Made by a program: the position numbers and the translations under genes. A DNA stretch of 16,305 nt, taken from positions 1 to 16,305 of the forward strand of contig CAKQON010000036.1 of NCBI GenBank assembly GCA_934255515.1, read 5' to 3'. This DNA comes from an uncultured Sutterella sp. (GTDB taxonomy: Bacteria; Pseudomonadota; Gammaproteobacteria; Burkholderiales; Burkholderiaceae_F). Each line of letters opens with the position of its first letter. Position 1 is the first letter of the stretch. Positions 1,073 through 16,134 of this stretch are shown here, in pieces. The notes under the pieces were generated by a model. That model worked only from the letters and a program-made list of their open reading frames with translations, was not told where the DNA came from and did no database searches.

Positions 1073-3493
1073 TCAATACGGGAGATCATCGTCGTCATCG
1101 TCATCATCGAAGTCGATGTCGTCCGGGAAGAAGCCGAAGCCGTCGCAATTGAATCGCCGGCGGCCTCTTGATCCGCGCTTTCCGCCCTTCACTGTGTGTC
1201 GGGAATAGCTTGAAAGGAGCGAGAAGTTGATCCTCCGCTCCTCAAGTTCGACCGTATCGAGCCGGACGGAGAGTCTGTCTCCGAGGCGCACCTCCGTCAT
1301 CTCGTCGTAGGAAGTCATCTTCTTTGCATTCTCGTCGTACTCGTAGTAGCCCCAGCCGAGCTGCGAAATATGGATGAAGCCCTCGATCGGCATCGCTTCG
1401 AGCGTGATGAAGACGCCCGCAGGGCACATGCCGGTGACGACGGCATCAAACTTGCGGCCGACCTTCGAGCGGAGGAACTCGCACTTCAAGTACTTCATCA
1501 CGTCGCGCGTTGCATCGTCGGCGCGGCGTTCGGCCGAGGAGCAGATGATGCCGAGCCGCGACCAGACGCGCTTTCTCGCTTCCGTGCGGCTTAAGGGCTT
1601 CGCAGGGGCCGCCGCCTTTTCGTCCGGACGGGCGCCGAGCTTTCTCGCGTGATAGCCGCTCATCACCTCCGCATCGTCGAATTCCACCACGGGCACGTAG
1701 GCGCGGTGCGCAAGAATTCCCTTGATCGTGCGGTGAAGAAGCAGATCCGGATAGCGGCGGATCGGCGACGTGAAGTGCGCGTAGGCGTCGAACTGGAGAC
1801 CGAAGTGTCCGATGTTGTCGGGTTGGTAGCAGGCGCGCTGCATGGTTCTCAGAATCGCCGACTGGATATAGGGACGGTCCTTCGTCTCCTCGATCACTTT
1901 CGAGAGCGCGTGCGCAAGCTCCTCGCGCTCGTTTGAGGACTTGAAGGCGATGCCGAAGGACGCGAGGAGACTTTTGAGTTCCTGGAGCTTCTTCGGATCA
2001 GGCTTGTCGTGAACGCGAAAGAGCGTGAGCTGCTTCTTTTCGAGGACGAACTTCGCCGCGGAGACGTTCGCAACGAGCATCGCCTCTTCAATCATGCGGT
2101 GCGCGTCATTGTGTTCGCGCACGCTGAAGCTCTCAATCTGCCCCTTGCTGTTAAAGACCGCCTGCGATTCCTCGGTCTCGAAGTCGAGCGCACCGCGCGC
2201 GATGCGTGCAGCCTTGAGCGCCTTGAAGAGCGCATGAAGGCGCTCGATTTCAGGGAGCCGCTCGCCGATCGCTTCAAGGCCCGCGGGCTCGTTCCGGAGA
2301 GCGGACCAGACAACGTTGTAGGTCAGACGCGCGTGCGAATGAATCACGCCCGGATAGAACTGATACGCCGTCGTGCGGCCTTCCGGGCTCACGATGGCGT
2401 CGCAGACCATCACGAGGCGGTCGACGCCGGGGTTGAGGGAGCAGAGGCCGTTTGAAAGCTTCTCAGGGAGCATCGGCACGACGGATGCCGGGAAGTAGAC
2501 CGAGGTCGCACGAATCTGCGCATCGCGGTCGAGCGACGTGCCGGGCTTCACGTAGCGGCTCACGTCCGCAATCGCAACCAGAAGACGCCAGCCTCCGTCA
2601 GGAAGGTCGGCGCAGTAAACCGCATCGTCGAAGTCGCGGGCATCCTCGCCGTCGATCGTGACGAAGGGAAGGTCCGTCAGGTCGACGCGGTTCTGGAGGC
2701 TCCGCTTATCCACCGCATCAGGGAGCTTCTTTGCTTCCTCAAGCGTCTCGGGACTGAATTCAATGGGAACGCCGAACTGGGCCGAGGCAATCGCCATTTC
2801 TCCCAACGGATCGTTCATGGCGCCCACGACCTTGACGAAGCGGGCGTTGAGTTCCACCCGCTCCTCATAGTTAACGGCTTCGCCGGGCGTCTCGGAATCC
2901 GGGAGAAGCTCTACCTCAACGGCATCCTTCTTCAGATTGACGCCCGGCGGAATTTCGCTTGCGGGCACGGCGAATTCGAGGGGTGCGAAAGCGGACACGG
3001 CCTTGAAGTAGACGTATTCGCCGCTCTTCGCAAGGAACTGGCACACCCAGCGCTTCTGCGGGCGGCGAATGAATTTCGAAAGGCGCCAGCCGGAAATGCT
3101 CCGCCTCAGTTCAAACACGTCGCCCGGAATGTAGTTGGGGCGATAGATCGGGAGCTCGATCTCCTCGCCCGCATCGCACTGCGGCATCACCGTCATTTTG
3201 TCGAGCGTGCGCGCACCCTGAACCACACCTGTCGTCGTTTCCGCCTCAGGATTGAGGAACCAGTTTTTCTCGTCCCCCTTTTCAAAGCCTTCTTCATTGA
3301 GACGAACAATCAGTGCGTTGGCGTCCTCGCTCGCGAATCCAAGTTCGCGCTTCAACTTCTTCTTCGCCTGCGTGTAGCTCACGTCCTCCTTAAGGCCGGC
3401 AAGGAACGCCTTCGCCTTCTGGACGTCTTCAGCCGTCACTTCCGGGAGCGGCGCCGGAATCTGAGCTTTGGTACGGGACTTTTTCTTCGACAT
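1073..3493 (-). CDS. rnr: Ribonuclease R (3'-5' exoribonuclease)
   Basis: A processive hydrolytic 3'-5' exoribonuclease that degrades structured RNA and takes part in rRNA quality control and trans-translation. The 806-residue product matches the family length (about 813 in E. coli). An N-terminal winged-helix and cold-shock/OB region is followed by the RNB catalytic domain with the metal-binding signature TIDGEDARDFDDAVYC. Family markers such as YFPASVVPMLPEKLSNGLCSL and FTSPIRRYPDLLLHR follow, then a C-terminal S1 domain (GVFITLEAMPIEGFIHIS). The ATG at 3493 is chosen because it begins MSKKKSRTK, a typical basic N-terminus; the frame is open farther upstream, but that part overlaps the preceding gene and looks non-coding. 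No strong ribosome binding site precedes it (GAGAAG only). Odd point: the basic tail (KGGKRGSRGRRR) is followed by an acidic end with eight consecutive aspartates. Confidence 0.95.
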   Translation of the reverse strand: MSKKKSRTKAQIPAPLPEVTAEDVQKAKAFLAGLKEDVSYTQAKKKLKRELGFASEDANALIVRLNEEGFEKGDEKNWFLNPEAETTTGVVQGARTLDKMTVMPQCDAGEEIELPIYRPNYIPGDVFELRRSISGWRLSKFIRRPQKRWVCQFLAKSGEYVYFKAVSAFAPLEFAVPASEIPPGVNLKKDAVEVELLPDSETPGEAVNYEERVELNARFVKVVGAMNDPLGEMAIASAQFGVPIEFSPETLEEAKKLPDAVDKRSLQNRVDLTDLPFVTIDGEDARDFDDAVYCADLPDGGWRLLVAIADVSRYVKPGTSLDRDAQIRATSVYFPASVVPMLPEKLSNGLCSLNPGVDRLVMVCDAIVSPEGRTTAYQFYPGVIHSHARLTYNVVWSALRNEPAGLEAIGERLPEIERLHALFKALKAARIARGALDFETEESQAVFNSKGQIESFSVREHNDAHRMIEEAMLVANVSAAKFVLEKKQLTLFRVHDKPDPKKLQELKSLLASFGIAFKSSNEREELAHALSKVIEETKDRPYIQSAILRTMQRACYQPDNIGHFGLQFDAYAHFTSPIRRYPDLLLHRTIKGILAHRAYVPVVEFDDAEVMSGYHARKLGARPDEKAAAPAKPLSRTEARKRVWSRLGIICSSAERRADDATRDVMKYLKCEFLRSKVGRKFDAVVTGMCPAGVFITLEAMPIEGFIHISQLGWGYYEYDENAKKMTSYDEMTEVRLGDRLSVRLDTVELEERRINFSLLSSYSRHTVKGGKRGSRGRRRFNCDGFGFFPDDIDFDDDDDDDDLPY

Positions 3494-3511
3494 GGGGAAT
3501 GGCTTCTCAAC

Positions 3512-3562
3512 AAAAAAACATGCGTCTTGAGCGATTACCAATCTAACAGCTTGTTCGCATGT
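3512..3562 (-). terminator. Possible terminator or attenuator between the AlbA_2 gene and rnr
   Basis: On the minus strand, arms ACATGCG (plus 3556-3562) and CGCATGT (plus 3518-3524) enclose a 31-base loop that itself contains a small GATT/AATC hairpin. The second arm runs straight into a seven-T tract (plus 3512-3518). This resembles a rho-independent terminator for the regulator gene ending at 3591. The large loop lowers confidence. It ends about 19 bases before the rnr start, so it could also modulate readthrough into rnr. Confidence 0.4.
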
Positions 3563-3590
3563 GCGGCAGGTCTGAAAACGAAATCTTCGT

Positions 3591-4928
3591 CTAGAGAAGT
3601 ACGCGGTAGCGGGTCGAGGGGCCGTTTCCGTCCGCCGCGACAAGTCCCCGTTCAATAAGGCGGCGCAGAAGATTGACTGTCCCTGCCTGAGAGAGGCCGA
3701 CCGCTTCCTGCACCTTGCGCCGCGCAACGCCCGGATGCTGCCTGAGGAACTCCACTGCAAGCGCCTCGACCTTTGAAAGCCTCTGCGGCGAGCGCTGAGA
3801 GAGCACATCGTAATCCTGGGGTTTCCTGAAGCGACTCTTGGCAAGAGACGGTGCTTCTGAAGCTTTTCCAACTTCGAGCACGACAATGACGCCTCCAGGA
3901 AAGGCGCGGAATTCAAAACCGCCGCCCCGCTTCTGAAGCGCATCCTTTATTCTGCCGACGCCTCCGCCGAGTCCTCTCGCAAGACCGACCGAACGGAGCG
4001 CTTCGAGTAGCCCCGGGTTTCTCACGCGCGAGAGTCCGCCCGTAGCATCTTCCGGAGTCATCCCCTGCGGAAGCCCGCCCGGTGAAACAATTTCAAGCCG
4101 GTCGGCATGGAGCTTTACCAGAATCTCCGCATCGTGAAGCGCATAGTCGCGGTGAAGAAGCGCATTGACGAGAGACTCCTGAAGAAGATTGAGGCCGAAT
4201 CTGCCGCCGCCCCGTTCCTCAAGCCAGGCAAGCGCGGAAAAGAGTTCCGTGAGGAGTCCGCCCGAAAAGCGCACATCCTCGAGGGGCTCAAAAGGATCTT
4301 CGCCAAACCGCACGCAACGGAGCGAAAACCCGTTTTCGTCGGAAAACACTTCCGCCGTCCTCGACCAGGCGCCGTCCGGAGTGAGAAAGCTTTTCGAATT
4401 ACGAAGCGTCTCGGCGCCGAGCAGCCCTTTTTCAAGGCAGAGCCGGTTGAGCGAAGCAAAGTGCGGGCTGGGATTGAGGGAGGCATGAGCGTCCCAGCAC
4501 GGTCCATGGCCGCGCTTCATGGCTTCAATGATCGAAGGCTTGGCCTCTGCCGTTCTTCCGTAGCGGCGAATCCAGACCCCGCGAGGCACGGCGCCCTCGC
4601 GCACAAGCGCATAAGGGCGATCCGGGGCAGCAAGGACATCGGCAACGATGAGAACGCCGCCGTCAGCATCATTCCCAACTTCAAGCCTCACGAAGGAAGA
4701 AAGATCGGGAAAGGCTTCCTCCCGCACGAGGCGCTTCAGTTCCCTGAGCGCTCCCCCGGGATTCTCCGGCGGCACGCACGTTCCGTCCCGGCGCAGGCCG
4801 ATCAGAAGGCGTCCGCCATCCGTATTGGCAAAGGCAATGATGGTCTTCAGCGCCTCTTCGGAAACTTCATCGGCATACTCTAGATGAAGGTCGGGATCGG
4901 CGCCCGCACGTACCGGCTGATTCAGCAT
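3591..4928 (-). CDS. AlbA_2/Schlafen-type DNA-binding regulator with RecG-C-like ATPase domain and C-terminal winged helix
   Basis: A putative transcriptional regulator of the family often mis-named 'ATP-dependent DNA helicase RecG-related'. The N-terminal third (about 15-130) has the AlbA_2 pattern: IIAFANTDGGRLLIGL and, later, WIRRYGRTAEA. The middle (about 245-345) has a HATPase_c_4-like segment with LLQESLVNALLHRDY, LEIVSPGGLPQGMT and RNPGLLEALRSVGL. The end (about 380-445) is a winged-helix domain (VARRKVQEAVGLSQAGTVNLLRRLIERGLV). No helicase motifs are present, so it is not a helicase. The ATG at 4928 has a strong AGGAGGG about six bases upstream. Its target is unknown; family members are frequently autoregulatory. 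Adjacency to moeA is noted, but nothing in the sequence ties it to the respiratory operon. Confidence 0.85.
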   Translation of the reverse strand: MLNQPVRAGADPDLHLEYADEVSEEALKTIIAFANTDGGRLLIGLRRDGTCVPPENPGGALRELKRLVREEAFPDLSSFVRLEVGNDADGGVLIVADVLAAPDRPYALVREGAVPRGVWIRRYGRTAEAKPSIIEAMKRGHGPCWDAHASLNPSPHFASLNRLCLEKGLLGAETLRNSKSFLTPDGAWSRTAEVFSDENGFSLRCVRFGEDPFEPLEDVRFSGGLLTELFSALAWLEERGGGRFGLNLLQESLVNALLHRDYALHDAEILVKLHADRLEIVSPGGLPQGMTPEDATGGLSRVRNPGLLEALRSVGLARGLGGGVGRIKDALQKRGGGFEFRAFPGGVIVVLEVGKASEAPSLAKSRFRKPQDYDVLSQRSPQRLSKVEALAVEFLRQHPGVARRKVQEAVGLSQAGTVNLLRRLIERGLVAADGNGPSTRYRVLL

Positions 4929-5075: not shown

Positions 5076-6308
5076 TCAATTGAAGAAGCGCTCCACGATC
5101 ACCTGTTCGCCGGCGCGCAGCATCTGATTCCGGAGGTGAATGACGCCTCCCGCCTCGCGAAAGAGTCTCGAGCAGCCAGTTCCTTTTTCCACCGGAAGCG
5201 CCGTAAGCCCCGCGGAGCCCCGCACGAGCGAAACGCAGAGTTCTCCCGTCTGGGGCTCCGGGATGTCGCCCCCAAAAAGGGCGCTGATGCGCTGAGGCTC
5301 CCAGGCATCAGCATGGAAGCGCCTCCAGATGACGGGAAGCGCCACGCGTTGGGCAATCATCATGGCGCCCAGCGGATTCCCGGGAAGGCCGAGCAACGGC
5401 ACGCCGTCAATTTCTCCGGATATGAAGGGAGGAACGCCTCCGGCGCAGCTTCTTTCTTCAAAAATCCTGCCGCCCGCGAGGAGAATTGCGCGCCTCGTGA
5501 GATCGCGCTGCCCCCCCCCGGTGCCGCCGATCGTGAAGATGAAGCCGCAGCGGTGGGCAAGCTCTGAGAGTTTCGCGGCAATGGCGTTTTCGTCGTCGGG
5601 AGCTGCCGCCGCATGAATATGACGGATCCCGGCCGTCATCAGGAGAGATCTCAGATAAGCCGCATTGCTCGAAACCCGGAGCGGACCGGCTTCGCCGCGG
5701 CAGTATAGGTCCTTCAGTTCGCTTCCCGTCGAAAGAATTCCTGCTGCAGGCGGCGCATAGACCTTCACGCGGTCGACTCCTGCCTCGAGGAGGAGCGCAA
5801 GTTCAGAGGCACCCACGAAGCTTCCCGCTTCAATGAGCGCATCCCCCGCCCGCCATTCACTCCCGCGCCGCAATACGTGGCGGCCGGGTTCAACAGCTCT
5901 CCGGGCGACTTCCGCATCATCGGGGCTTTCCGCAGGGATAACCGCATCCGCCCCCCGGGGAATCATGCCCCCCGTATTCACCCAGAGGGCTTCGCCCGCT
6001 CTGAGAGGCTCCGGCGTTCTGCCGTTTTCAACGCTCCCGGACTTCGCCCGGCGGCAGCGGTCGCCCGAAAAAACAGCCCAGCCGTCCCTGAGCGCCGTGT
6101 CGTAGTCGGGAGAATCCGTCTCCGCGAGGATGTCTTCAGCAAGCGTTGCGCCGAAGCTGTCGCAGAGCCGCACAAAGCTCGGCTCCGGAGCGCTCCAGGC
6201 GCCGGGCAGTTCATAGGGCCGCAGAAGGAAATGCTTCATTTCTATTGACCAGGGCCTTTGCGCGTCCCTGGGTGTAGTTGTGTCGTTCCCGCCGCCCTCT
6301 CCCGGCAT
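5076..6308 (-). CDS. moeA: MoeA-type molybdopterin molybdenumtransferase, divergent active site
   Basis: MoeA inserts molybdate (or tungstate) into MPT-AMP to complete the molybdenum cofactor in the cytoplasm. At 410 residues it has the family length (411 in E. coli). Visible landmarks are LRDGWAV around 73-79 (family DGYA), NTGGMIPRGADAVIPAE at 111-127, ILSTGSEL at 191-198, the MPT-binding-type GGTGGGQRD at 261-269 with the conserved Asp 269, and GLPGNP at 307-312. The lysine-containing segment of E. coli MoeA (pattern K-P-G-K-P) aligns here with CAGGVPPF, so both lysines are absent. The start is uncertain: ATG 6308 has GAGA nearby, but family homology begins near MKHFLLRPYEL, whose ATG is at 6239. 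Divergent from the Mo/W enzyme operon, so probably its dedicated cofactor supplier (inference). Nine consecutive Gs encode Gly 264-266. Confidence 0.88.
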   Translation of the reverse strand: MPGEGGGNDTTTPRDAQRPWSIEMKHFLLRPYELPGAWSAPEPSFVRLCDSFGATLAEDILAETDSPDYDTALRDGWAVFSGDRCRRAKSGSVENGRTPEPLRAGEALWVNTGGMIPRGADAVIPAESPDDAEVARRAVEPGRHVLRRGSEWRAGDALIEAGSFVGASELALLLEAGVDRVKVYAPPAAGILSTGSELKDLYCRGEAGPLRVSSNAAYLRSLLMTAGIRHIHAAAAPDDENAIAAKLSELAHRCGFIFTIGGTGGGQRDLTRRAILLAGGRIFEERSCAGGVPPFISGEIDGVPLLGLPGNPLGAMMIAQRVALPVIWRRFHADAWEPQRISALFGGDIPEPQTGELCVSLVRGSAGLTALPVEKGTGCSRLFREAGGVIHLRNQMLRAGEQVIVERFFN

Positions 6309-6973: not shown

Positions 6974-7678
6974 ATGGATATCAACGACATTCTCGAGAAG
7001 CTGTCGCTGCCGCACGACTTCACGCGCAGAGGGTTTCTCAAGGCGGCATCGGCCGCAGCGGCAGTCGCCCTCATGACCGAAGCCAGGGCCAAGCCCGGCG
7101 TGCGCCCGTACGTCATTCTTGAGACCGCCAAGGGCCTCATCATTGCCGACCCGAATCTCTGCGTCGCCTGCCACCGGTGCGAACTTGCCTGCACGGAATT
7201 CAACGACGGCAAGGCCGACCCGAGGCTTGCCCGCATCAAGATGACGCGCAACGTCATGTTCGGACCGGCCGGAACCAATCACCTCCCGTCGCCCTTCGGC
7301 GTCTGGGGCAACGGCCTTGTCGTCCAGGACACCTGCCGCCAGTGCCCCCACCCGGTCCCCTGCGCCAATGCATGCCCGCAGGGCGCCATCCGCGTGGACG
7401 AGAAGACGGGCGCCCGCGTCGTCGTGAAGGAGCTCTGCATCGGCTGCCACCTCTGCGAAAAGGCCTGCCCGTGGGACATGATGAGCTTCGACGTTGAGGA
7501 GCAGAAAGCTTCGAAATGCTTCCTCTGCCACGGCGACCCGAAGTGCGTCAAGGCCTGCCCCGCGCTCGCCATCCGCTACATCCCCTGGATGGACCGCTCG
7601 CACGAGGAATCGCGCCGCGCGCCGCACGGCTACCTCCCGGCGGAGAACGCCGCCGAATGCAGCATCTGCCACCGCTAA
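6974..7678 (+). CDS. ydhY: YdhY-like Tat-exported ferredoxin with four [4Fe-4S] clusters
   Basis: Electron-transfer subunit of the NrfC/DmsB ferredoxin class, expected to wire the Mo/W enzyme to the respiratory chain in the periplasm. The N-terminus carries a twin-arginine signal, TRRGFLK at 17-23, then an Ala-rich stretch and a likely cleavage after ARA (39). Sixteen cluster cysteines follow in four groups: 63/66/69/73, 121/124/130/134, 155/158/161/165 and 182/185/191/195. The length (234) is close to E. coli YdhY (208), and order and context (next to ydhV) support the name. A strong AGGAGA five bases before the ATG fixes the start. First gene of the operon; 21 bases separate it from ydhV. 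Odd: the last residues are CSICHR, an extra CxxCH not seen in E. coli YdhY. Confidence 0.88.
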   Translation: MDINDILEKLSLPHDFTRRGFLKAASAAAAVALMTEARAKPGVRPYVILETAKGLIIADPNLCVACHRCELACTEFNDGKADPRLARIKMTRNVMFGPAGTNHLPSPFGVWGNGLVVQDTCRQCPHPVPCANACPQGAIRVDEKTGARVVVKELCIGCHLCEKACPWDMMSFDVEEQKASKCFLCHGDPKCVKACPALAIRYIPWMDRSHEESRRAPHGYLPAENAAECSICHR

Positions 7679-7699
7679 TCAGAAAGAAGTATTTCGAAA

Positions 7700-9811
7700 A
7701 TGACTGATACGAAAAAGAGATACGGCTACACAGGACAGGGCCTGCGCATCAACCTGACGACTGGAAAAGTCTCGGTCGAACCCACCTTCCCGCGCTTTGA
7801 CGGACTGATCGGCGGCACGGCCTTCGGCTACAAGGTCATGTGGGACGAAGTGCCCCCGGAAACGAGCTGCTACGACCCCGCCAACAAGCTCGTCATCGCC
7901 CCGGGTCCGCTTTCGGGCACAGGCGCCATCTGCTCGGGCCGCACCGCAATCACAACCCTCTGGCCCACCTCGTGGCCTCAGTCGCTCATTGCCTCCGCTC
8001 ACGTGGGCGGCGAACTCGCGCACAAGCTCAAGTACGCCGGCTGGGACTTCGTGATCATCGAAGGGGAATCCGCCAAACCGGTCTACATCTACATTGAAAA
8101 CGAGAAGGTTGAACTTCGCGACGCGTCGAAGATCTGGGGCCAGGGCACCTTCCGCTCCTACGCGATGCTCGCCCAGGAAACGAGCTGCGAAGCGAGCATC
8201 GGCACGATCGGGCCGGCCGGCGAAAACGGCGTTCCCATGTCGAACCTCATGGTCGACCGCAGCCACTCCGCGGGTTCGATCGGCAGCGTTCTCGGCAAGA
8301 AGAAGGTGAAGGCGATCGTCGTTCGCGGCAATCAGGCGATTCACATCCACGCGAAGCCCGACGAATGGGAAGCGCTCATCGACAGCCACCGCGCCATTCT
8401 GGGCGCTCACACGCAGACCGTGGTCTCGCGCGTTCCGTCGCCGCTCTTTGAGTATTCGAGCCCGTCCTCCCGCTGGTCCGGCCTTCCGGGACGCGTCTGG
8501 GGTGCGGCGAACCCGCCCGTCACAATTTCGGGCGACATCCGCGACGTGAACCACATCGCCTACCGCACCTGCTCGGCAGAGTTCTACTTAGGGCCCTCGC
8601 TCTGGAACTATCACGTGCGGACGACGGGCTGCTACGCCTGCCCGATCCGCTGCTATTCGATCATCCGAGACGAAGGCACGGCCGCCAAGTACCGCATCAA
8701 CGCCATCACGGAACAGACCTGCATGGCGCTCTACGGCCGCTGGTTCTTCCCGAGCCTCATCAGCGACCTCGACAAGCCCGTTTCCCGCGAGGCCTGCCTC
8801 GTCGGTTCGCAGACAATGGACGACCTCGGCCTCTGGTGCAACTACGGCCAGCTTCACCGCGACTTCGTGCACTTCCTCAAGATGGGCTACTGGAAGAAGG
8901 TTCTTCCGCCCGATGAATACAAGACCATCGCCTGGGAGAAGTTCGATAATCCCGATCCTTCGGTGCTCCAGGACATTCTTCCGCGCATTGCCTACCGCAG
9001 GGGCGAATTCGGCCGCTGGCTCGGCGAGACGACGCCGAAGCTTCTCGAACACTTCGGCTTCACGGAAGCCGAATGGCAGAAGGGCCAGCCCGACGTGACG
9101 CTTTACTGGGCGCACGGCCATCCGAAGCATCACTCGAACGAGGACGACGGCCAGATCGGCTGCGTTCTCAATTCCCTCTACAACCGCGATCCGATGAGCC
9201 ACGGCCACATCAACTTCACGCGCTGCGGCCTGCCGATTGAGGTGCAGAAGAGAATCGGCGAGAAGTTCTGGGGAAGCCCCGACTGCGTCGACGCGATCGG
9301 CGACTACAAGCCCACGAACATCTGGAAGATGAAGCGCCTCCAGTGGGTCGTGGCGAGAAAGGAGCTCCACGACATGCTCGGCATCTGCTCCTGGACGGCG
9401 CCCTGGGAAGTCTCGCCCTTGCGCGAAAAAGGCTACATCGGCGACATCGAAATGGAAAGCAAGGTCTTCCGCGCCGTCACGGGCATCAGCATGACCCAGG
9501 ACGAGCTCGACCATGCGGGCCTGCGCGCCTTCATCCTGCAGCGCGCTTACACGATGCTGCAGATGAAGACGAAAACGCCGAGAAAGGATCACGATCAGTA
9601 TCCCGACTGGATCTTCTACGACAAGAAGGGCAAAGCCCCCTTCACGAAGGGCACGATCCGGATGGAGAAGGCCGATATTGAAAAGAGCTTTGAACTCTTC
9701 TACGAACTCATGGAATTCAATGTCGAAACCGGTGCTCCGACCGAAAAGTGCCTGAAGGACTACCAGCTCGACTACGTCGTCCCGGTGCTCAGGCAGGCGG
9801 GCCTCATCTGA
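7700..9811 (+). CDS. ydhV: YdhV-like oxidoreductase, aldehyde:ferredoxin oxidoreductase (AOR) family, Mo/W-bis-MPT enzyme
   Basis: Catalytic subunit. AOR-family enzymes interconvert aldehydes and carboxylic acids using a tungsten or molybdenum bis-pterin and one [4Fe-4S] cluster; E. coli YdhV binds a bis-MPT molybdenum cofactor and its substrate is unknown. The 703 residues match YdhV (700). The N-domain starts GQGLRINLTTGKVSVE. Cluster ligands are C311, C314 and C318 (CYACPIRC) plus distal C563 in DMLGIC, which corresponds to the second AOR DxxGxC motif; the first is DLGLWC (375-380). Long blocks such as GLWCNYGQLHRDF and YNRDPMSHGHINF closely resemble E. coli YdhV. No signal peptide is visible, although all its likely partners are exported or in the membrane, so it may travel with the Tat-targeted YdhY-like protein (inference). 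Confidence 0.93.
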   Translation: MTDTKKRYGYTGQGLRINLTTGKVSVEPTFPRFDGLIGGTAFGYKVMWDEVPPETSCYDPANKLVIAPGPLSGTGAICSGRTAITTLWPTSWPQSLIASAHVGGELAHKLKYAGWDFVIIEGESAKPVYIYIENEKVELRDASKIWGQGTFRSYAMLAQETSCEASIGTIGPAGENGVPMSNLMVDRSHSAGSIGSVLGKKKVKAIVVRGNQAIHIHAKPDEWEALIDSHRAILGAHTQTVVSRVPSPLFEYSSPSSRWSGLPGRVWGAANPPVTISGDIRDVNHIAYRTCSAEFYLGPSLWNYHVRTTGCYACPIRCYSIIRDEGTAAKYRINAITEQTCMALYGRWFFPSLISDLDKPVSREACLVGSQTMDDLGLWCNYGQLHRDFVHFLKMGYWKKVLPPDEYKTIAWEKFDNPDPSVLQDILPRIAYRRGEFGRWLGETTPKLLEHFGFTEAEWQKGQPDVTLYWAHGHPKHHSNEDDGQIGCVLNSLYNRDPMSHGHINFTRCGLPIEVQKRIGEKFWGSPDCVDAIGDYKPTNIWKMKRLQWVVARKELHDMLGICSWTAPWEVSPLREKGYIGDIEMESKVFRAVTGISMTQDELDHAGLRAFILQRAYTMLQMKTKTPRKDHDQYPDWIFYDKKGKAPFTKGTIRMEKADIEKSFELFYELMEFNVETGAPTEKCLKDYQLDYVVPVLRQAGLI

Positions 9812-9826
9812 CGTCTGAGGGAAGTG

Positions 9827-10717
9827 ATGCAAATGGAAGACCAGGAGAAAGTGACGGATCCACGTGCCGAAGCGAAGCGCCTTTCGCGCCTCAAGGCCGA
9901 CGAGCTCATCCTGATTGATCTCGTGACGGAAAAGAGCCGCAAGGTGGAGCTGATGCCCCGCGACGAGCTATGCGAAGCCTTTAAGGCAAAGGCGGCGCTC
10001 GCCCCTGAACCGGAGGTTGACGAGCTCCTCGCCGATGCCGAAAAGCAGATGGACCGGACCTACAACCGTGCTCCGGGAACCGTCTCCTTCGTGCCGCCCA
10101 GGACGCGCTCGAAGGAAGAGCGCGAGAAGAACCGCGAGCTCGTACCCACGCTGCGCGACCAGCGCGAGGCTTTCACGCGCCGCGAGCTCCTTCGAAGTCT
10201 CATTGCCGGGGACCTTCATCACGCTGAGGCGGTTGCCGCCGAGGCTGAAAAGGAAGCCGCGCGGCAGGCGCCCGCAGAGCCCCGCGACATCACGGACGAG
10301 TATTTCAATGAAGTGCTCGACGCCGTTCTTGCCGATGACTGCGGCGTCGCGAAGCTCATCGCCTGGGACGAGAAGGAGTACTACCACTATCGTCCGCTTC
10401 TCTCCGTTTCCTACGCCCGCATCCTTTCGGCCAAGAACAACCCCGTCGAACAGCTCTGCGACCGGGTGCGCGAATGCTCGCGCATCTATCCGCGCCCGGT
10501 TCTTCTCGGAGCCTTTCAGGACGAGCCCTTCAACTTCACGCCTGAAGCGCTCCAGGAAATCCTCCAGAAGCTCCCCGAAGATCCGAAGACTAACGACATC
10601 AAGTTCACTCAATCCTCGCTCGGGACCGTGTACCTCTATTCGAACCGGTACCTCGACGACGATTACGCGGATTTTCTGGTGGAACACATCGATGTCGACC
10701 TCGTAATGAGTCCCTGA
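9827..10717 (+). CDS. ydhW: YdhW-position protein with two internal repeats, unknown function
   Basis: A 296-residue cytoplasmic-looking protein (no signal peptide, no membrane segment) in the place occupied by ydhW (about 215 residues) in E. coli. Residues about 154-200 and 236-285 look like two copies of one unit: (I/F)T...E(V/I)L, then (V/I)K(L/F), YxY and YAxxL. Between the N-terminal part and the repeats lies a highly charged, Glu/Ala-rich helical stretch. Six cysteines are scattered without CxxC motifs, so no cluster or heme is expected. The start is ATG 9827, with GAGG six bases upstream; a GTG one codon earlier and an ATG at 9833 are alternatives. Co-transcribed between the catalytic subunit and the cytochrome. 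A role as assembly or proofreading chaperone for the cofactor enzyme is a guess from position and cytoplasmic location. Confidence 0.75.
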   Translation: MQMEDQEKVTDPRAEAKRLSRLKADELILIDLVTEKSRKVELMPRDELCEAFKAKAALAPEPEVDELLADAEKQMDRTYNRAPGTVSFVPPRTRSKEEREKNRELVPTLRDQREAFTRRELLRSLIAGDLHHAEAVAAEAEKEAARQAPAEPRDITDEYFNEVLDAVLADDCGVAKLIAWDEKEYYHYRPLLSVSYARILSAKNNPVEQLCDRVRECSRIYPRPVLLGAFQDEPFNFTPEALQEILQKLPEDPKTNDIKFTQSSLGTVYLYSNRYLDDDYADFLVEHIDVDLVMSP

Positions 10718-10725
10718 GGGGACTC
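10708..10725 (+). other. Hairpin enclosing the ydhW stop codon
   Basis: GAGTCCC (10708-10714) and GGGACTC (10719-10725) form a perfect seven-pair GC-rich stem whose four-base loop TGAG contains the stop codon TGA. No U-run follows, so it is not a terminator. It probably shapes mRNA stability or translation coupling between this gene and the cytochrome gene 46 bases downstream. Confidence 0.5.
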
Positions 10726-10770
10726 CGGGCCTGTCTGAAAGAAGTTCCGAATACGCAAAGGATTTTGAAA

Positions 10771-11850
10771 ATGACCAAGAACTCAAATCACCTCGCCGCG
10801 GGAAGAGGCTTCATGCTGATGCTCCTCGCCGGCGCCGTCGGCTCGGCCCTTGCAGCCGAAGCCCCGGCGGATCCCTACCCGCCCGTCAAGTTCGACCTTC
10901 CCGCTCACGAAGCGTTCGTGAAGGACCTCAACCTCGATCCCGCCCGTCATCAGGGCCCGCAGATTGTTGAGGAGCAGAAGAAGGCACTCACGCAAATCTT
11001 CAACGAAAAGACCGAGCAGAATTCGCTCTCGAAGCACTACGAAAAGGGCCACACCTGCACTACCTGCCATGATCAGCAGAGAATCGGCCGCCCCGACTGG
11101 ATGACTTCCGTCACTGCACCCGAGATGAAGCAGAAGTGCGGCGACTGCCACGACGTGCAGAAGAAGGTCTTCTCGAAGACCGACACGCATAAGAAGATTG
11201 ACTGCGTCGCCTGCCACATGCCCAACATGCCGAGCCCGGAGGAATTCCAGGGTCCTGACGGCGTGAAGGAGTTCTACAACGCCGTGCGCCGCTCGCACCT
11301 CTACAAGATCAATGTCGATCCGAGCGCTCAGACCTACGTGAGAAATCTCGACGCGAAGGAAGGCGAACGCCTCTGGACCTATGCGCTCGACAAAAAGGGA
11401 CATGCGTATGTCGACATTGTCTGGTCCTGCGGCCGCGCCACGCCGGGCGACTACACGCTCTCGGGCGACGCTCAGGGGTGCCACAGCCCTGCGACGAGCA
11501 CGCTTGACGAGGGACTGCGCTATGCCGACCAGTCGGCGATCTATGCGGAAATCCTCAAGTGGCAGACCCCTGTCAAGGAAGGATTCGAAAAGATCGGCGC
11601 AGGGCTCGAGCGCTTGAAGCAGCTCCTTGAAGTGACGGCTCTGAAGCCTGCCGACCAGACCGAAGTCCGCCTCATGCTCGACAAGGCCGAGGAAATCTAC
11701 GACCAGGTGAAGGAAGACGGCTCCTGGGGCGCGCATGCGCCGCGCTACCTGAAGGACCGCGTCCTCACAGGCGTGGGCTACATCGAAAAGGCTCAGGCCA
11801 TCATCGACAAGGGTGGCTACCAGTCCGCCTCTGAGAAGAAGAACCGCTGA
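10771..11850 (+). CDS. Secreted multiheme cytochrome c (three CxxCH motifs plus a CX16CH)
   Basis: A periplasmic electron-transfer protein of 359 residues. The ATG at 10771 (AAAGGA eight bases upstream) gives a Sec signal peptide ending at about ALAA (residue 29). Heme motifs are CTTCH at 96-100, CGDCH at 123-127 and CVACH at 145-149. A fourth pair, C220 and C237-H238, is spaced CX16CH and could be a non-canonical heme site. Several histidines (for example H46, H60, H89, H140, H176, H322) could be distal ligands. The C-terminal half is alpha-helical and ends GAHAPRYLKDRVLTGVGYIEKA, reminiscent of the C-terminal helices of NrfA-class multiheme proteins. E. coli ydhYVWXUT has no such gene: it is inserted between the W and X positions and probably shuttles electrons between the Fe-S proteins and NrfD. 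I do not recognise a named family. Confidence 0.85.
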   Translation: MTKNSNHLAAGRGFMLMLLAGAVGSALAAEAPADPYPPVKFDLPAHEAFVKDLNLDPARHQGPQIVEEQKKALTQIFNEKTEQNSLSKHYEKGHTCTTCHDQQRIGRPDWMTSVTAPEMKQKCGDCHDVQKKVFSKTDTHKKIDCVACHMPNMPSPEEFQGPDGVKEFYNAVRRSHLYKINVDPSAQTYVRNLDAKEGERLWTYALDKKGHAYVDIVWSCGRATPGDYTLSGDAQGCHSPATSTLDEGLRYADQSAIYAEILKWQTPVKEGFEKIGAGLERLKQLLEVTALKPADQTEVRLMLDKAEEIYDQVKEDGSWGAHAPRYLKDRVLTGVGYIEKAQAIIDKGGYQSASEKKNR

Positions 11851-11893
11851 CACCTTCGGCGCCTCTCTCGACCCTGAAACCCCAAAACTCTCT

Positions 11894-11961
11894 GATCCGC
11901 TCCTGCGCTTCCCCGGACCGATTTCCCTATTAGGAATCGGCTGGAGAGCGCGGTACGGATC
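11894..11961 (+). other. Long imperfect stem-loop between the cytochrome gene and the ydhX-like gene
   Basis: Three nested arms can pair: GATCCG (11894-11899) with CGGATC (11956-11961), GCGCT (11905-11909) with AGCGC (11947-11951), and CCGATTTCC (11918-11926) with GGAATCGG (11933-11940). Internal loops of four to five bases separate the outer two stems. The structure ends three bases before the AGGAGA ribosome binding site of the next gene. The gap of 127 bases is by far the longest in the operon. It could be a processing or stability element, or control translation of the downstream pair. Confidence 0.5.
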
Positions 11962-11977
11962 AGCAGGAGAAAAAGCT

Positions 11978-12637
<660 letters not shown>

Positions 12638-12639
12638 CC

Positions 12640-13617
12640 ATGGACGGCGTACTTGATTTTTCAATCGGCCTCACGGAAGGCGTTGCCTGGCCCTGGCCGA
12701 TTGCGGTCTACCTTTTCCTTGCCGGCATCTCGGGCGGCGCTCTCGGCGTCATTCTTTCGATGACAAAGCTGCGGGGAACCTCGCGCGAAGATTCGCCGCT
12801 GCTCAAGTCGGCGGCGCTCATCGCTCTCGCGACGATTCTCCTCGGCATGGTCTGCCTCGTCCTCGACCTCACCGACCCGCTCTTCTTCTGGAGAATTCTC
12901 GTCTTCTACAACCCGACCTCCGTGATGAGCGTGGGCGTGATGATGCTCCTCTGCTACATCCCGCTCACGGCGGTGCTCACCGTCATCGTCCTCAGGAAAG
13001 AATTCAATCGGGTGCTCAGCTTCCTCCATATGCCGAAGCTCGGCGCCTTTGTTGAAAAGCTCGGCGAAATTTTCAACCGTGCAAGAACACCTATCACCTG
13101 GATCGTGCTCTTTCTTGCCTTCGGCATCTGCGCCTATACCGGGTTCCTGATTTCGGCGCTCATCCGCTATCCCCTCATCAACACGGCTGTCCTCCCGGCG
13201 CTCTTCGTCGCCTCAGGCGTTTCCGCGGGCACTGCTGCCGCCAAGCTCGTTGCCGTTGCCTTCTTCGGCGAAAAGATGAGTTCGGAAAACGTACACCTTC
13301 TGCACAAGGCTGAGTATCCAATGATGGCGATTGAAGCGAGTTGCATCTTCATGATCGGCATGGCGATGATTTTTGGCTTTGCGGGTGCTCAGGCCGCTGC
13401 CGCAGCGTTCATCTCGGGCGTCTGGGCGGTTGTCTTCTGGGCGGGCGCCGTCGGCGTCGGCTTCGGGATTCCGCTCGTTCTCGGAATCGCCGTGAAGGGA
13501 CACTCCCCGGTCGTCTTCTGGACTACGGGCTTCTGCGCCGTGGCCGGCATGATGTGCCTGCGCCTCTTCATCCTTTACGCCGGGCAGTTGAATTCCCTCA
13601 TGCTCACAACAATCTAA
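12640..13617 (+). CDS. NrfD/PsrC-type quinone-interacting membrane protein
   Basis: Integral inner-membrane subunit of 325 residues with about eight hydrophobic helices (about 18-41, 56-76, 96-118, 152-174, 182-208, 226-249, 255-283, 290-313). Family hallmarks include WPIAVYLFLAGISGGA near the start and the charged or polar residues in early helices associated with quinone binding. NrfD/PsrC proteins exchange electrons between the quinone pool and a periplasmic ferredoxin subunit; here that partner is the lipoprotein encoded immediately upstream (two-base gap). It replaces the cytochrome-b-like YdhU of the E. coli operon. Last gene of the operon, followed by the terminator at 13674. Direction of electron flow cannot be read from sequence. 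Confidence 0.9.
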   Translation: MDGVLDFSIGLTEGVAWPWPIAVYLFLAGISGGALGVILSMTKLRGTSREDSPLLKSAALIALATILLGMVCLVLDLTDPLFFWRILVFYNPTSVMSVGVMMLLCYIPLTAVLTVIVLRKEFNRVLSFLHMPKLGAFVEKLGEIFNRARTPITWIVLFLAFGICAYTGFLISALIRYPLINTAVLPALFVASGVSAGTAAAKLVAVAFFGEKMSSENVHLLHKAEYPMMAIEASCIFMIGMAMIFGFAGAQAAAAAFISGVWAVVFWAGAVGVGFGIPLVLGIAVKGHSPVVFWTTGFCAVAGMMCLRLFILYAGQLNSLMLTTI

Positions 13618-13719: not shown

Positions 13720-14334
13720 TCAGCTCCCGAGCGCGCCGGCAGCAATGAGTTTTTCCGTCAATTCCTTAGCACTGTGGGTGCCGAGCTTGCGCATTGCGCC
13801 GGCGCGATGAAATTCCACCGTCCGGACGGCGAGCTCCAGGCGTTCTGCAATCTGTCGGTTGGTGAGCTTCTGCCCGGCGAGAAGCGCAACCTCGCGCTCG
13901 CGATCGGAGAGTGCCGCGAAGGCTTCCCGCGCCTCCCGGGCATCTGTCGTTTGAACCTCTGCAGAGCCTTTCCGGGAAAGGGCCTTGTCGACCGCCGTGA
14001 GAAGCTTCTCGGCCCGAACGGGCTTGGTGAGAAAGGTGACGGCGCCGCTGTCGATCGCATCGACCGCCATTTCGATGTCGCCGTGAGCGGAAAGAAAAAT
14101 GACGGGAAGATCAACCTCGCGCTCCTTCAAAACGCGCTGCAGCACGAGGCCGCTCATCTTTCCCATCCGTACGTCGAGAACAGCGCAGCCGGGATCGCTC
14201 AGAAAATCTCCTGCGAGGAAATCCTCAGCACTAAAGAAATGCCTCACGCTGTAGCCCTCGCTTTCAAGAACAAACTGCAGCGCGTCGTGCATGTGGGGAT
14301 CGTCGTCCACGATTCTGATGACGGGGTCGGTCAC
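13720..14334 (-). CDS. TtrR-like FixJ/NarL-type response regulator
   Basis: A 204-residue transcription factor. The receiver domain (1-120) has the acidic pocket D10-D12, phosphoacceptor D54 (AVLDVRMG) and the conserved K104 (LTKPV). A LuxR-type helix-turn-helix follows (about 143-188): LSDREREVALLA, LTNRQIAERL, AVRTVEFHR. The start is GTG at 14334, with GGAGGA five bases upstream. It begins 15 bases after the stop of the kinase gene, so kinase and regulator are one unit. Being next to the operon end and convergent with it, it is the natural candidate to control the promoter near 6600, where two TACC palindromes lie (inference). The TtrR label describes the class, not tetrathionate specificity: no tetrathionate reductase is encoded here. 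Confidence 0.9.
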   Translation of the reverse strand: MTDPVIRIVDDDPHMHDALQFVLESEGYSVRHFFSAEDFLAGDFLSDPGCAVLDVRMGKMSGLVLQRVLKEREVDLPVIFLSAHGDIEMAVDAIDSGAVTFLTKPVRAEKLLTAVDKALSRKGSAEVQTTDAREAREAFAALSDREREVALLAGQKLTNRQIAERLELAVRTVEFHRAGAMRKLGTHSAKELTEKLIAAGALGS

Positions 14335-14349: not shown

Positions 14350-16134
14350 TTACTGCTTCTCGACGCGTTCCCCGGGAAGGAGAGGGAACGTTACGGTTAC
14401 TGCCAGACCGGTAAATATGCCGCCCGGTCCGCGGCTGAAGGCAATGCTGCCTCCATGGTTTTCTATGAGTCCCGAGGCAATCGAGAGCCCGAGACCAAGG
14501 CCGTGGGCCTTTTCGCTCGAAGCCGGGAAGCCGAGGCGGGAAAGTTCTTCGTCTGTCGGAGGAGTGCCGCTGTCCATCACGCGAATCACCACGCGATCAT
14601 TCTCGACTGCGCCTGTAAAGGACACGGCGGGCGCCTTCGCCCCCTGAACGGCCTCTCGGGCATTCTTCAGAAGATTGACGAGCGCAACCTCAAGCTCGAA
14701 TTCGTTCCCTTCCAGAGCGGCGTCCGGATCCGGCGCGGAGAAGACCAGCGGAATGTCAAGCGCGGAATAGGTGCGCCAGAGATGCACGCAGTGCTGCATC
14801 AGCTTCTCAACGCTCAGGTGCTTTCTTTCTTCGCCGCGCCCCTTTGCATAGGCGCGCACCCGTTCGACGATTTCGCTCGCCCGGTGCGTTTCATCGGACA
14901 CCTTGTCGCAGATGCCGGCCATTTTCTCCGGATCGAACTTCCCGCGGCGGAACTGCCGAGCGAGGCCTTCGGCATAGAGCGAAGCGCAGGCGAGGGGCTG
15001 GCGCAGCTCATGCGCGAAAAGATTGGCGAGCTGCACCATCGTCGATTCGTAATGCATGGTCTGAAGCGCCTCGGCCTGCTTCATCTCCTTTTCCATGAGC
15101 TCGCGCACTTTTTCTCCGCGGCGCCTCGCGACAACCTCGGAGCGCCAGCTGTGGAAAATAAGGCCGAGAATCAGCATGAGCGTAAGGAGCACCCAAGAGA
15201 GATTGCGCTCCACGAGCTTCATGATGGAGCCTTGACCGAGTCCTTCCCAGGGGCCGACCTCAAGCGTCTGCAAGAGCCTGTCGACCGTGAGAAAGTTGGC
15301 GGGAACAGCCCATTTAGGGCCGCCCTCATCGGGCTCCATGGAAAAGAGTGCGAGCGCGAGGCGCCGGGCCAGTTCGGGCGCAATGTGCTCCGTCACGGCG
15401 AGCGTGAAGCCCGGAAAGAGGTCCGTCGAATGCGCGCAGGCAAGACTGCTTTCGCGCCGGTCAAGGACCCTGAGAAGGCCGATCTTTTCCGGGTGGCGTT
15501 TGAGGAAGGCTTCATAGGCACAGAGCCTCAGAAAGCCTGCATCGGCCTCCCCGTCGATCACAAGTTCCGCAATCCGGTCGGTCGACCGGGAGTCGCCCGT
15601 GAAGATCACTTTTCCGAAAAAGGAACGGGGCTCCTCGACGCCGAATTTGGCGATCTCGCCGAGAACAATCTGCCAGCCCGAGAATCCGAGCGGGTTATTG
15701 GCAGCGACGATTCGCGACCGCAGGTCTCCAAGCGTCTGGAGCTCAAAGCGGTCCGAACGAACCACGACTGCAGTGCCTTCGGCGCGGTTTGGATCCGCCC
15801 CCGGATGCGCCACGATGGTGGCAATTGGCTGAATGTTGTGGTGAGCAAGACGCCGGATATGACCCGAAGTGCCGAGCACCAGATCCGTCTTTTGGGAGAC
15901 GGCTTCCCGCTCAAACTCCTCGAACGTGCAGAACTTGAGATCGATGCCGCGCGTTTTGAGAAGAGGTCCGAGCGCCTTCCTCACCGCCCTCACGATCCGG
16001 ATATTGTCCTCAGGATTCGCAAACACCATGACGGCGATCCGTACGGGAGCCATTTTCTCTTGCGGAGCTCCCTCTGCCGCAAAAGCAAATATTGCGGCAA
16101 AAAAGAGGACTGCCGGTCTAAAGGATATCGCCAT
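14350..16134 (-). CDS. TtrS-like sensor histidine kinase with PhnD-type periplasmic ligand domain
   Basis: A membrane sensor of 594 residues. After a signal or anchor segment (about 1-22) comes a periplasmic phosphate/phosphonate-binding-protein-like domain (about 29-295), with VRIAVMVFANPEDNIR, GFSGWQ and GEADAGFLR typical of TtrS-type receptors. A transmembrane helix (about 312-330) and a coiled coil follow. The kinase core shows H375 in FAHELRQPLA, the N-box NLLKNAREAV (487-496), G1 VMDSGTPP and G2 GLGLGLSIA. The ligand is unknown; TtrS itself senses tetrathionate, but this gene sits with an AOR-type enzyme instead. The ATG at 16134 has no recognisable ribosome binding site (upstream bases are pyrimidine-rich), and a stop codon lies 13 codons before it. 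The gene precedes and is probably co-transcribed with the response regulator. Confidence 0.9.
   Translation of the reverse strand: MAISFRPAVLFFAAIFAFAAEGAPQEKMAPVRIAVMVFANPEDNIRIVRAVRKALGPLLKTRGIDLKFCTFEEFEREAVSQKTDLVLGTSGHIRRLAHHNIQPIATIVAHPGADPNRAEGTAVVVRSDRFELQTLGDLRSRIVAANNPLGFSGWQIVLGEIAKFGVEEPRSFFGKVIFTGDSRSTDRIAELVIDGEADAGFLRLCAYEAFLKRHPEKIGLLRVLDRRESSLACAHSTDLFPGFTLAVTEHIAPELARRLALALFSMEPDEGGPKWAVPANFLTVDRLLQTLEVGPWEGLGQGSIMKLVERNLSWVLLTLMLILGLIFHSWRSEVVARRRGEKVRELMEKEMKQAEALQTMHYESTMVQLANLFAHELRQPLACASLYAEGLARQFRRGKFDPEKMAGICDKVSDETHRASEIVERVRAYAKGRGEERKHLSVEKLMQHCVHLWRTYSALDIPLVFSAPDPDAALEGNEFELEVALVNLLKNAREAVQGAKAPAVSFTGAVENDRVVIRVMDSGTPPTDEELSRLGFPASSEKAHGLGLGLSIASGLIENHGGSIAFSRGPGGIFTGLAVTVTFPLLPGERVEKQ

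Follow-up and report, generated by a model that had tools for sequence, protein, structure and literature searches.

How does a YdhV-type oxidoreductase draw on the respiratory chain when its gene is followed by genes for a multiheme cytochrome c and an NrfD-like membrane protein? This question is raised by a window of 16,305 nucleotides (the whole stretch of DNA analyzed here; contig CAKQON010000036.1 of assembly GCA_934255515.1) from an uncultured Sutterella species, in which we confirmed six open reading frames (ORFs) at positions 6974 to 13617, all on the + strand and tightly spaced. The window is Sutterella-like in sequence: the nearest named genome is that of Sutterella seckii (L001), in which nine compared genes are 91–100% identical to those of the window. 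A sequence-only reading had described the six genes as a respiratory complex that links an aldehyde- or acid-type reaction to quinones. Our analysis makes it very likely that the operon is a chimera, in which a YdhYVW core is joined to one half of the sulfite reductase MccA and to an MccCD-like quinol arm. The six genes are as follows.

6974..7678, + strand, YdhY/WorS-like Fe-S subunit with a twin-arginine signal (RRGFLK), four 4Fe-4S Cys sets and the C-terminal end CSICHR-stop, which contains a CxxCH motif
7700..9811, + strand, YdhV/WorL, the predicted AOR-family bis-pterin catalytic subunit, of the YdhV clade (PRK09849, AFOR_N, AFOR_C)
9824..10717, + strand, YdhW-like protein (PRK09947, 89.9 bits with a cut-off of 203; 69 relatives)
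10771..11850, + strand, tetraheme cytochrome c, C-terminal half of MccA/SirA (match to MccA, 4rkm; Sec-type signal by eye)
11978..12637, + strand, MccC/SirC-like 4x[4Fe-4S] protein (RR signal; possible lipobox GGCS by eye)
12640..13617, + strand, MccD/SirD-like NrfD-family membrane quinol dehydrogenase (PF03916, 209.8 bits; NrfD tree)

For the cytochrome, the ATG at 10771 is a better start than the listed TTG at 10765, and for the NrfC-like protein the GTG at 11978, behind AGGAGA, is better than the listed start at 11813. The genes after YdhW encode a cytochrome c, an MccC-like protein and an NrfD protein, in agreement with the sequence-only reading, which had noted that YdhU and YdhT of Escherichia coli have no counterpart here. 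The genes that it labeled multiheme cytochrome c and NrfC/NrfD are present, but they are more exactly described as the tetraheme C-terminal half of MccA and as MccC/MccD-like.

In a sequence search, MccA, the octaheme sulfite reductase of Wolinella (4rkm), was the one solved protein matched well by the cytochrome, with an E-value of 1.5e-58 over MccA residues 415–700. A predicted model of the cytochrome, with a predicted local distance difference test (pLDDT) score of 76.9, matched the fold of MccA with an E-value of 4.6e-20, whereas the values for octaheme nitrite reductases and NrfA were 1.8e-03 or worse. The heme motifs of the protein are CTTCH, CGDCH, CVACH, and CX16CH. An alignment was made of 78 proteins, 65 of them full-size and of the MccA type and 13 half-size, the latter being those of the window and of 12 further loci. 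From the C-terminal half of MccA, all 13 half proteins retain every heme motif, three of the CXXCH type and a long one (CX15-16CH); the long motif is CX16CH in the window and L001–L003 and has X15 elsewhere, with the C and CH columns kept in 13/13. L005 carries an extra Cys within the long motif and was therefore passed over by the motif search, but it is counted in the alignment. Four further His residues are conserved in all 78 proteins (65/65 full and 13/13 half), which together with the four heme sites is enough for four bis-His hemes.

What the half proteins have lost is equally uniform. The N-terminal half with its four CXXCH motifs is present in 65/65 full proteins and absent from 13/13 half proteins; a CxxC that is invariant in 65/65 full MccA proteins is deleted in 13/13; Cys478 (L011 numbering) is replaced by Pro, Ala, Gly, or Lys in 13/13; and the His at 425 is gone in 13/13. 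The copper ligands of MccA, which we take to be Cys399 and Cys495 of the Wolinella protein, are probably both among the lost Cys sites. Because the catalytic half and the conserved non-heme Cys residues are gone and the heme sites are kept, the half-cytochrome looks like an electron-transfer remnant of MccA without the sulfite site.

We then asked where such half-cytochromes occur. A scan of named genomes with the cytochrome as the query gave 103 stretches encoding a relative, and the best 80 of these 103 correspond to 79 distinct loci. A half-size cytochrome was found in 12 of the 79 loci, and YdhV adjoins it in 12/12; in the other 67 loci, which have a full-size, cut, or frameshifted cytochrome of the MccA type, YdhV was found in 0/67 within the stretches examined. 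The complete six genes in the same order are present in 10 of the 12 half-cytochrome loci, so that the gene order proposed by the sequence-only reading is both correct and recurrent. YdhY is present in 11 of the 12 (L005 begins inside the contig), YdhW in 11, and NrfC and NrfD in 11; L008 has no YdhW and no room for one, and it ends before NrfC. In one operon (L008 and L102), the half-cytochrome gene directly follows that of YdhV after about 180 bases, and YdhW is therefore dispensable in some members.

The linkage was also seen from the side of YdhV. A second set, which overlaps with the 79 loci, comprised 61 genomes around the nearest relative of the window. YdhV was found at 12 places in eight of these genomes; eight weaker matches (141 bits or less) were generic AORs or less. 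The half-cytochrome is present at 11 of the 12 places, ten times behind YdhW and once (L102) straight after YdhV, and the remaining place (L090) is cut by a contig end. With full MccA as the query, a third set, 21 chosen Sutterellaceae-type genomes, yielded 11 matches of the half type; they lie in eight genomes, the same eight as the YdhV-positive ones. Seven of the eight (G003, G007, G009, G016, G017, G024, and G036) also keep a full MccA; for G001, only the half was found, with no full MccA match. In a class sample of 369 genomes, G001 alone gave a YdhV-like score (813 bits), and five others scored 207–212 bits, like generic AORs. A blastn search with the YdhV gene of the window gave no match in E. 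coli genomes.

Several apparent exceptions were examined and rejected. Two half-size ORFs (G010:C32 and G002:C31) stop at contig ends and have full-type residues, and two candidates for a half-cytochrome without ydhV (L060 and L040) likewise have full-type residues, the missing N-terminal part of L060 being readable in another frame upstream. All the checked exceptions are cut or frameshifted full MccA, and none is a half-cytochrome without ydhV. The sequence-only reading had named as its own refutation a cytochrome found elsewhere with another enzyme or ydhV homologs showing no co-occurrence. This test fails because the half-cytochrome was seen beside ydhV only and every checkable Sutterellaceae ydhV has one. 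The search for the six-gene order supports its view of a distinct, recurrent YdhV system in Sutterellaceae that is probably quinone-linked. In one locus (L004, from a metagenome-assembled genome of an uncultured canine Sutterella), the YdhV gene contains two TAG codons and the NrfD and MoeA genes are each split into two ORFs, indicating that the operon has decayed there or that the assembly contains errors.

The origin of the quinol arm was traced with trees. In the tree of the cytochrome C-terminal half, built on 34 of the 78 rows (the 13 half proteins and 21 of the 65 full ones), the half-cytochromes form one clade with support of 100/100, which sits beside full MccA of Sutterellaceae with weaker support (84/89 and 78/72). 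The NrfC-like protein of the window is 56–63% identical to NrfC-like proteins of the MccA loci of Sutterellaceae and Shewanella and 38–43% identical to those of Leminorella and Edwardsiella. The NrfD protein is 54–60% identical to MccA-linked NrfD (69% for one fragment) and 35–40% identical, over 65–68% of its length, to NrfD of 13 plasmid-collection records. In trees of selected rows (29-row groups with two NrfA-linked outgroup rows), NrfC and NrfD of the ydhV operons group with the MccA loci of Sutterellaceae and Shewanella, apart from the two NrfA-linked rows, with support of 90/92 and 86/96, under the strict mark of the tool. Two results weaken the case for a transfer of the whole arm in one step: the ydhV-linked NrfC and NrfD proteins do not form single clades (two and four changes, respectively), and the NrfC-like rows of Leminorella and Edwardsiella are placed outside the MccC group.

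Other lineages pair YdhV differently. Outside Sutterellaceae, 10 of the 35 genomes with MccA have YdhV elsewhere, namely, 9 of the 31 Shewanella genomes and the one Leminorella genome. The Leminorella locus (L127) has the E. coli ydh set. The nine Shewanella loci (L128–L136) have ydhYV, mostly with a recognizable short YdhW, and thus share the YdhYVW core; in 7/9 (L128–L132, L135, and L136), this core stands next to a gene for a multiheme cytochrome, one of the other two being at a contig end and one being without such a gene. The Shewanella loci differ from the window in that the cytochrome is divergent and has 11 CxxCH motifs, the YdhY tail is present in 0/5 proteins examined, and these stretches hold no half-MccA. 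The L129 cytochrome, the sole one searched, belongs to the OmcA/MtrC/UndA family and has a lipobox, hinting that YdhV of Shewanella may communicate with a cell-surface electron chain. Since the loci of Sutterellaceae, Leminorella, and Shewanella differ in this way, the YdhYV core has been joined to different electron partners in each lineage.

The YdhV-like protein would be the catalytic subunit. PRK09849 matched it over the whole length with 812.7 bits, under the curated cut-off of 868, and the next best family reached 25.6 bits; the protein is 39–40% identical to YdhV of E. coli and Cetobacterium. In the alignment, Cys341 stands opposite Cys336 of the E. coli enzyme (with the second in-frame Met of the annotated L080 ORF as residue 1) and is kept in 13/13 rows of the clade, whereas 5/5 generic AORs have Ser or Thr. 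We saw no signal peptide on YdhV by eye. The BamB complex of class II benzoyl-CoA reductase, another member of the AOR family, is cytoplasmic and multi-subunit and differs in this from the window system, and family scans named no Bam partner among the window proteins. Its shared features are reductive chemistry and a Cys metal ligand, which the text of a review describes as common to YdhV and BamB alone among AOR/WOR members (PMC12096430). CsWOR41, the L subunit of a Class V WOR from Cetobacterium, is stated in the text of PMC13328260 to have no activity on 46 aldehydes. The substrate of YdhV is probably not an ordinary aldehyde because the Cys ligand is shared with BamB and CsWOR41 is inactive on those 46 aldehydes; the aldehyde- or acid-type reaction proposed by the sequence-only reading is not supported. 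Two points count against the reductase model set out below. Our own alignments, with a partial BamB, did not pair BamB Cys322 with Cys341, so the equivalence is taken from the review (PMC12096430), and the text of PMC13328260 gives no activity for a Class V WOR.

YdhY would connect the cytochrome to YdhV. PF10518 (TAT_signal) matched its N-terminus, which contains RRGFLK, with 19.8 bits, under the cut-off of 22.7. The protein ends in CxxCH plus one residue in 12/12 Sutterellaceae rows, and this tail is absent from 9/9 rows of E. coli, Proteus, Leminorella, Cetobacterium, and Shewanella and from all 76 NrfC-like proteins of the loci (0/76). A search gave 1115 YdhY relatives at E 1e-30 or better, and among the best 120 of 1115 (the other 995 lie outside these counts), 114 have CxxCH within the last 40 residues; the other six are either short or end differently. 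In 108 of the 116 proteins measured, 32 or 33 residues separate the last Fe-S motif from the tail; this count uses a looser rule and adds two rows failing the first tail rule. In a 30-row alignment picked among tail carriers (A3), C229, C232, and H233 are invariant. Named carriers beyond Sutterella, among the matches listed, are Syntrophobacter, Fundidesulfovibrio, Solidesulfovibrio, Desulfovibrio, and a Chitinophagales metagenome-assembled genome; Desulfovibrio and Syntrophobacter are also named among Class V holders in the text of PMC13328260. Searches for tailed YdhY outside Sutterellaceae found none among viral contigs, G001 alone in 398 Pseudomonadota genomes, none in 50 genomes of the phylum of Mucispirillum (a search without a positive control), and at best the Cetobacterium, E. 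coli, and Proteus forms among plasmids.

The plain reading of the tail motif is heme, and we regard the tail as a candidate covalent heme c site. We tentatively propose, with slightly less than even confidence, that YdhY, exported by the twin-arginine translocation (Tat) pathway with four [4Fe-4S] clusters, receives a covalent tail heme after export and that this heme plugs a Cys-ligated Mo/W pterin reductase into a multiheme cytochrome, here half of a sulfite reductase; sulfate reducers and further bacteria would have the same kind of plug on many of their YdhY-like proteins. The tail could instead bind zinc or aid Fe-S or subunit contacts, and the tetraheme cytochrome would then hand its electrons directly to a [4Fe-4S] cluster; we consider this somewhat unlikely. 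Two more CxxCH strings in the window YdhY (residues 63–67 and 155–159) lie inside ferredoxin motifs and are no heme sites, so a CxxCH string alone does not prove a heme, and only 52/116 proteins have a His in the stretch from the last cluster to the tail, so a distal ligand is not conserved. In addition, Tat-exported proteins do not usually carry heme c; Tat substrates fold in the cytoplasm, whereas heme c is attached outside. These points count against a tail heme. However, the motif is a canonical heme c motif that is invariant in A3, nearly fixed in spacing, and kept in relatives far from Sutterella, and a free C-terminal tail could meet the heme lyase after export.

Taken as a whole, we consider it rather probable that the six genes encode a periplasmic, membrane-anchored, menaquinol-dependent respiratory reductase that combines two known modules. 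From the MccD-like NrfD-family protein, where menaquinol would be oxidized, electrons would reach the tetraheme cytochrome by way of the MccC-like 4x[4Fe-4S] protein and continue to YdhY, probably via a covalent heme on its CxxCH tail. The last steps would run along the four [4Fe-4S] clusters of YdhY to the Mo/W bis-pterin center of YdhV, with its Cys ligand. As YdhV itself has no visible signal peptide, we infer that it is carried out together with Tat-exported YdhY; it would then reduce an acceptor in the periplasm that is probably other than an ordinary aldehyde. According to the text of PMC8076601 and PMC6976685, MccACD works as a quinol:sulfite oxidoreductase with MccD as its NrfD-like membrane subunit. 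The E. coli ydhYVWXUT operon is FNR-activated and is listed near frdABCD in a table of PMC3688515, which fits an anaerobic reductase.

The same complex could run in reverse, with YdhV oxidizing a periplasmic substrate and the tetraheme and MccCD-like proteins feeding the menaquinone pool. In favor of such a reversal, Qrc, an NrfD-family complex, reduces quinone (text of PMC8076601), and the characterized AOR/WOR clades besides YdhV and BamB oxidize aldehydes (text of PMC12096430). We nevertheless consider this unlikely: the arm resembles that of a quinol-oxidizing reductase, CsWOR41 is inactive on the aldehydes offered, and FNR activation of the E. coli operon fits a terminal reductase, yet is compatible with oxidation.

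Alternatively, the half-cytochrome and the MccCD-like proteins might work apart from YdhV, as a small reductase or redox sink of their own, and share no more than regulation with ydhYVW. One operon need not mean one complex, and according to the text of PMC13328260 the L subunits of CsWOR41 and of E. coli Ydh were each purified on their own. We think this very unlikely, because the linkage (12/12 vs 0/67) extends across two paralogous operon types, the locus would have no YdhX/YdhU-type partners without the arm, and the cytochrome lacks the catalytic half and the non-heme Cys residues. An ordinary or chance gene cluster is ruled out by the same linkage together with the half-cytochrome at 11/12 YdhV places.

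The proposed menaquinol-dependent reductase can be set beside known systems. It shares with the E. coli operon (L080) the order ydhY, ydhV, ydhW, then an NrfC-family protein, and the conserved Cys336. It differs in having neither YdhU (a cytochrome b) nor YdhT and in a YdhV that is 39% identical; the CxxCH tail and the MccCD-type quinol arm with its tetraheme cytochrome belong to the window. With MccACD/SirACD, it shares the C-terminal four hemes, including the CX15-type motif, and downstream NrfC-like and NrfD-like partners, but it has lost the catalytic N-terminal half, the CxxC, and Cys478, and catalysis has presumably moved to YdhV. It belongs with the Class V WORs (clade 41), which have a YdhV-clade WorL, a WorS with a Tat signal, and extra subunits (text of PMC13328260); the window likewise has a YdhV-family catalytic subunit, an equivalent of the Cys ligand, and a Tat-signal WorS with four further genes. 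Class V WORs of Sutterellaceae are already in print, Sutterella and Parasutterella being named, as are cytochrome-containing subunits of some Class V WORs in general terms; supplements aside, that account states no half-MccA, MccCD-like NrfCD, or CxxCH tail on WorS (PMC13328260). In the open-licence literature searched, supplements excluded, we found no description of an origin of the cytochrome from half of MccA, of the MccCD-like arm, of the single half-cytochrome clade, or of the CxxCH tail, nor of a heme-to-Fe-S-to-pterin respiratory chain of such a build. The MccA/MccCD origin and the YdhY tail were also missed by the sequence-only reading.

Maturation of the cytochrome gave a further indication. 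The CX15CH-type heme of SirA/MccA requires its own lyase (text of PMC6976685). Counting ORFs of 550 amino acids or more in the 21 chosen Sutterellaceae-type genomes, we found a second CcmF-like protein in 19/19 genomes with MccA or its half and in 0/2 without; an NrfA-like gene is present in 20/21, both single-CcmF genomes included. The second CcmF-like protein of Sutterella G001 and its like lies on a different branch from the SirE type of mcc clusters, so that this link is suggestive. In L175 (G001:C280) and L176, the second CcmF-like gene is flanked by small genes resembling maturation genes.

Three further genes border the operon.

5076..6308, − strand, MoeA-like pterin metal insertase, the divergent upstream neighbor of the operon
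13720..14334, − strand, TtrR/FixJ-like response regulator, convergent (NF040749, 161.7 bits with a cut-off of 290)
14350..16134, − strand, TtrS-like sensor kinase with a periplasmic PhnD-type binding domain, convergent (PF12974, HATPase_c; NF040750, 146.3 bits with a cut-off of 750)

The divergent moeA is also present at L001–L004, L006, L007, and L009 and was not seen in a second operon type (L012, L014, and L015); Turicimonas and Parasutterella excrementihominis each carry the operon in both types, only one of which has the divergent moeA. The TtrR-like and TtrS-like pair is convergent in the same place in L001 and L002, and L006 has a TtrR-like gene upstream instead; the TtrS-like protein could be a sensor of the substrate of the YdhV system. 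FNR-like sites in the window are not in excess over chance (5 found vs 3.92 expected) and are patchy in relatives. An AlphaFold2 model of the YdhW-like protein (pLDDT 82.5) gave, in structure comparison, a weak match that suggests winged-helix-like parts. Elsewhere in the window, a Schlafen/AlbA_2-type ORF (3591–4928) adjoins RNase R (1073–3943) on the − strand; as the listed ORFs overlap, the RNase R start as listed is probably too far upstream.

Both E. coli and many bacteria of the gut possess YdhV-type enzymes, and the text of PMC13328260 assigns an activity to no Class V WOR. The variant described here shows the likely wiring of one YdhV form, from menaquinol through an MccCD-like arm, a tetraheme cytochrome, and a heme-tailed Fe-S protein to the pterin, and this wiring points to a periplasmic acceptor. 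It looks like a clear natural case in which half of an enzyme is reused as wiring for another. These results suggest that the operon is an unexplored route of anaerobic respiration in gut bacteria of the Sutterella type.

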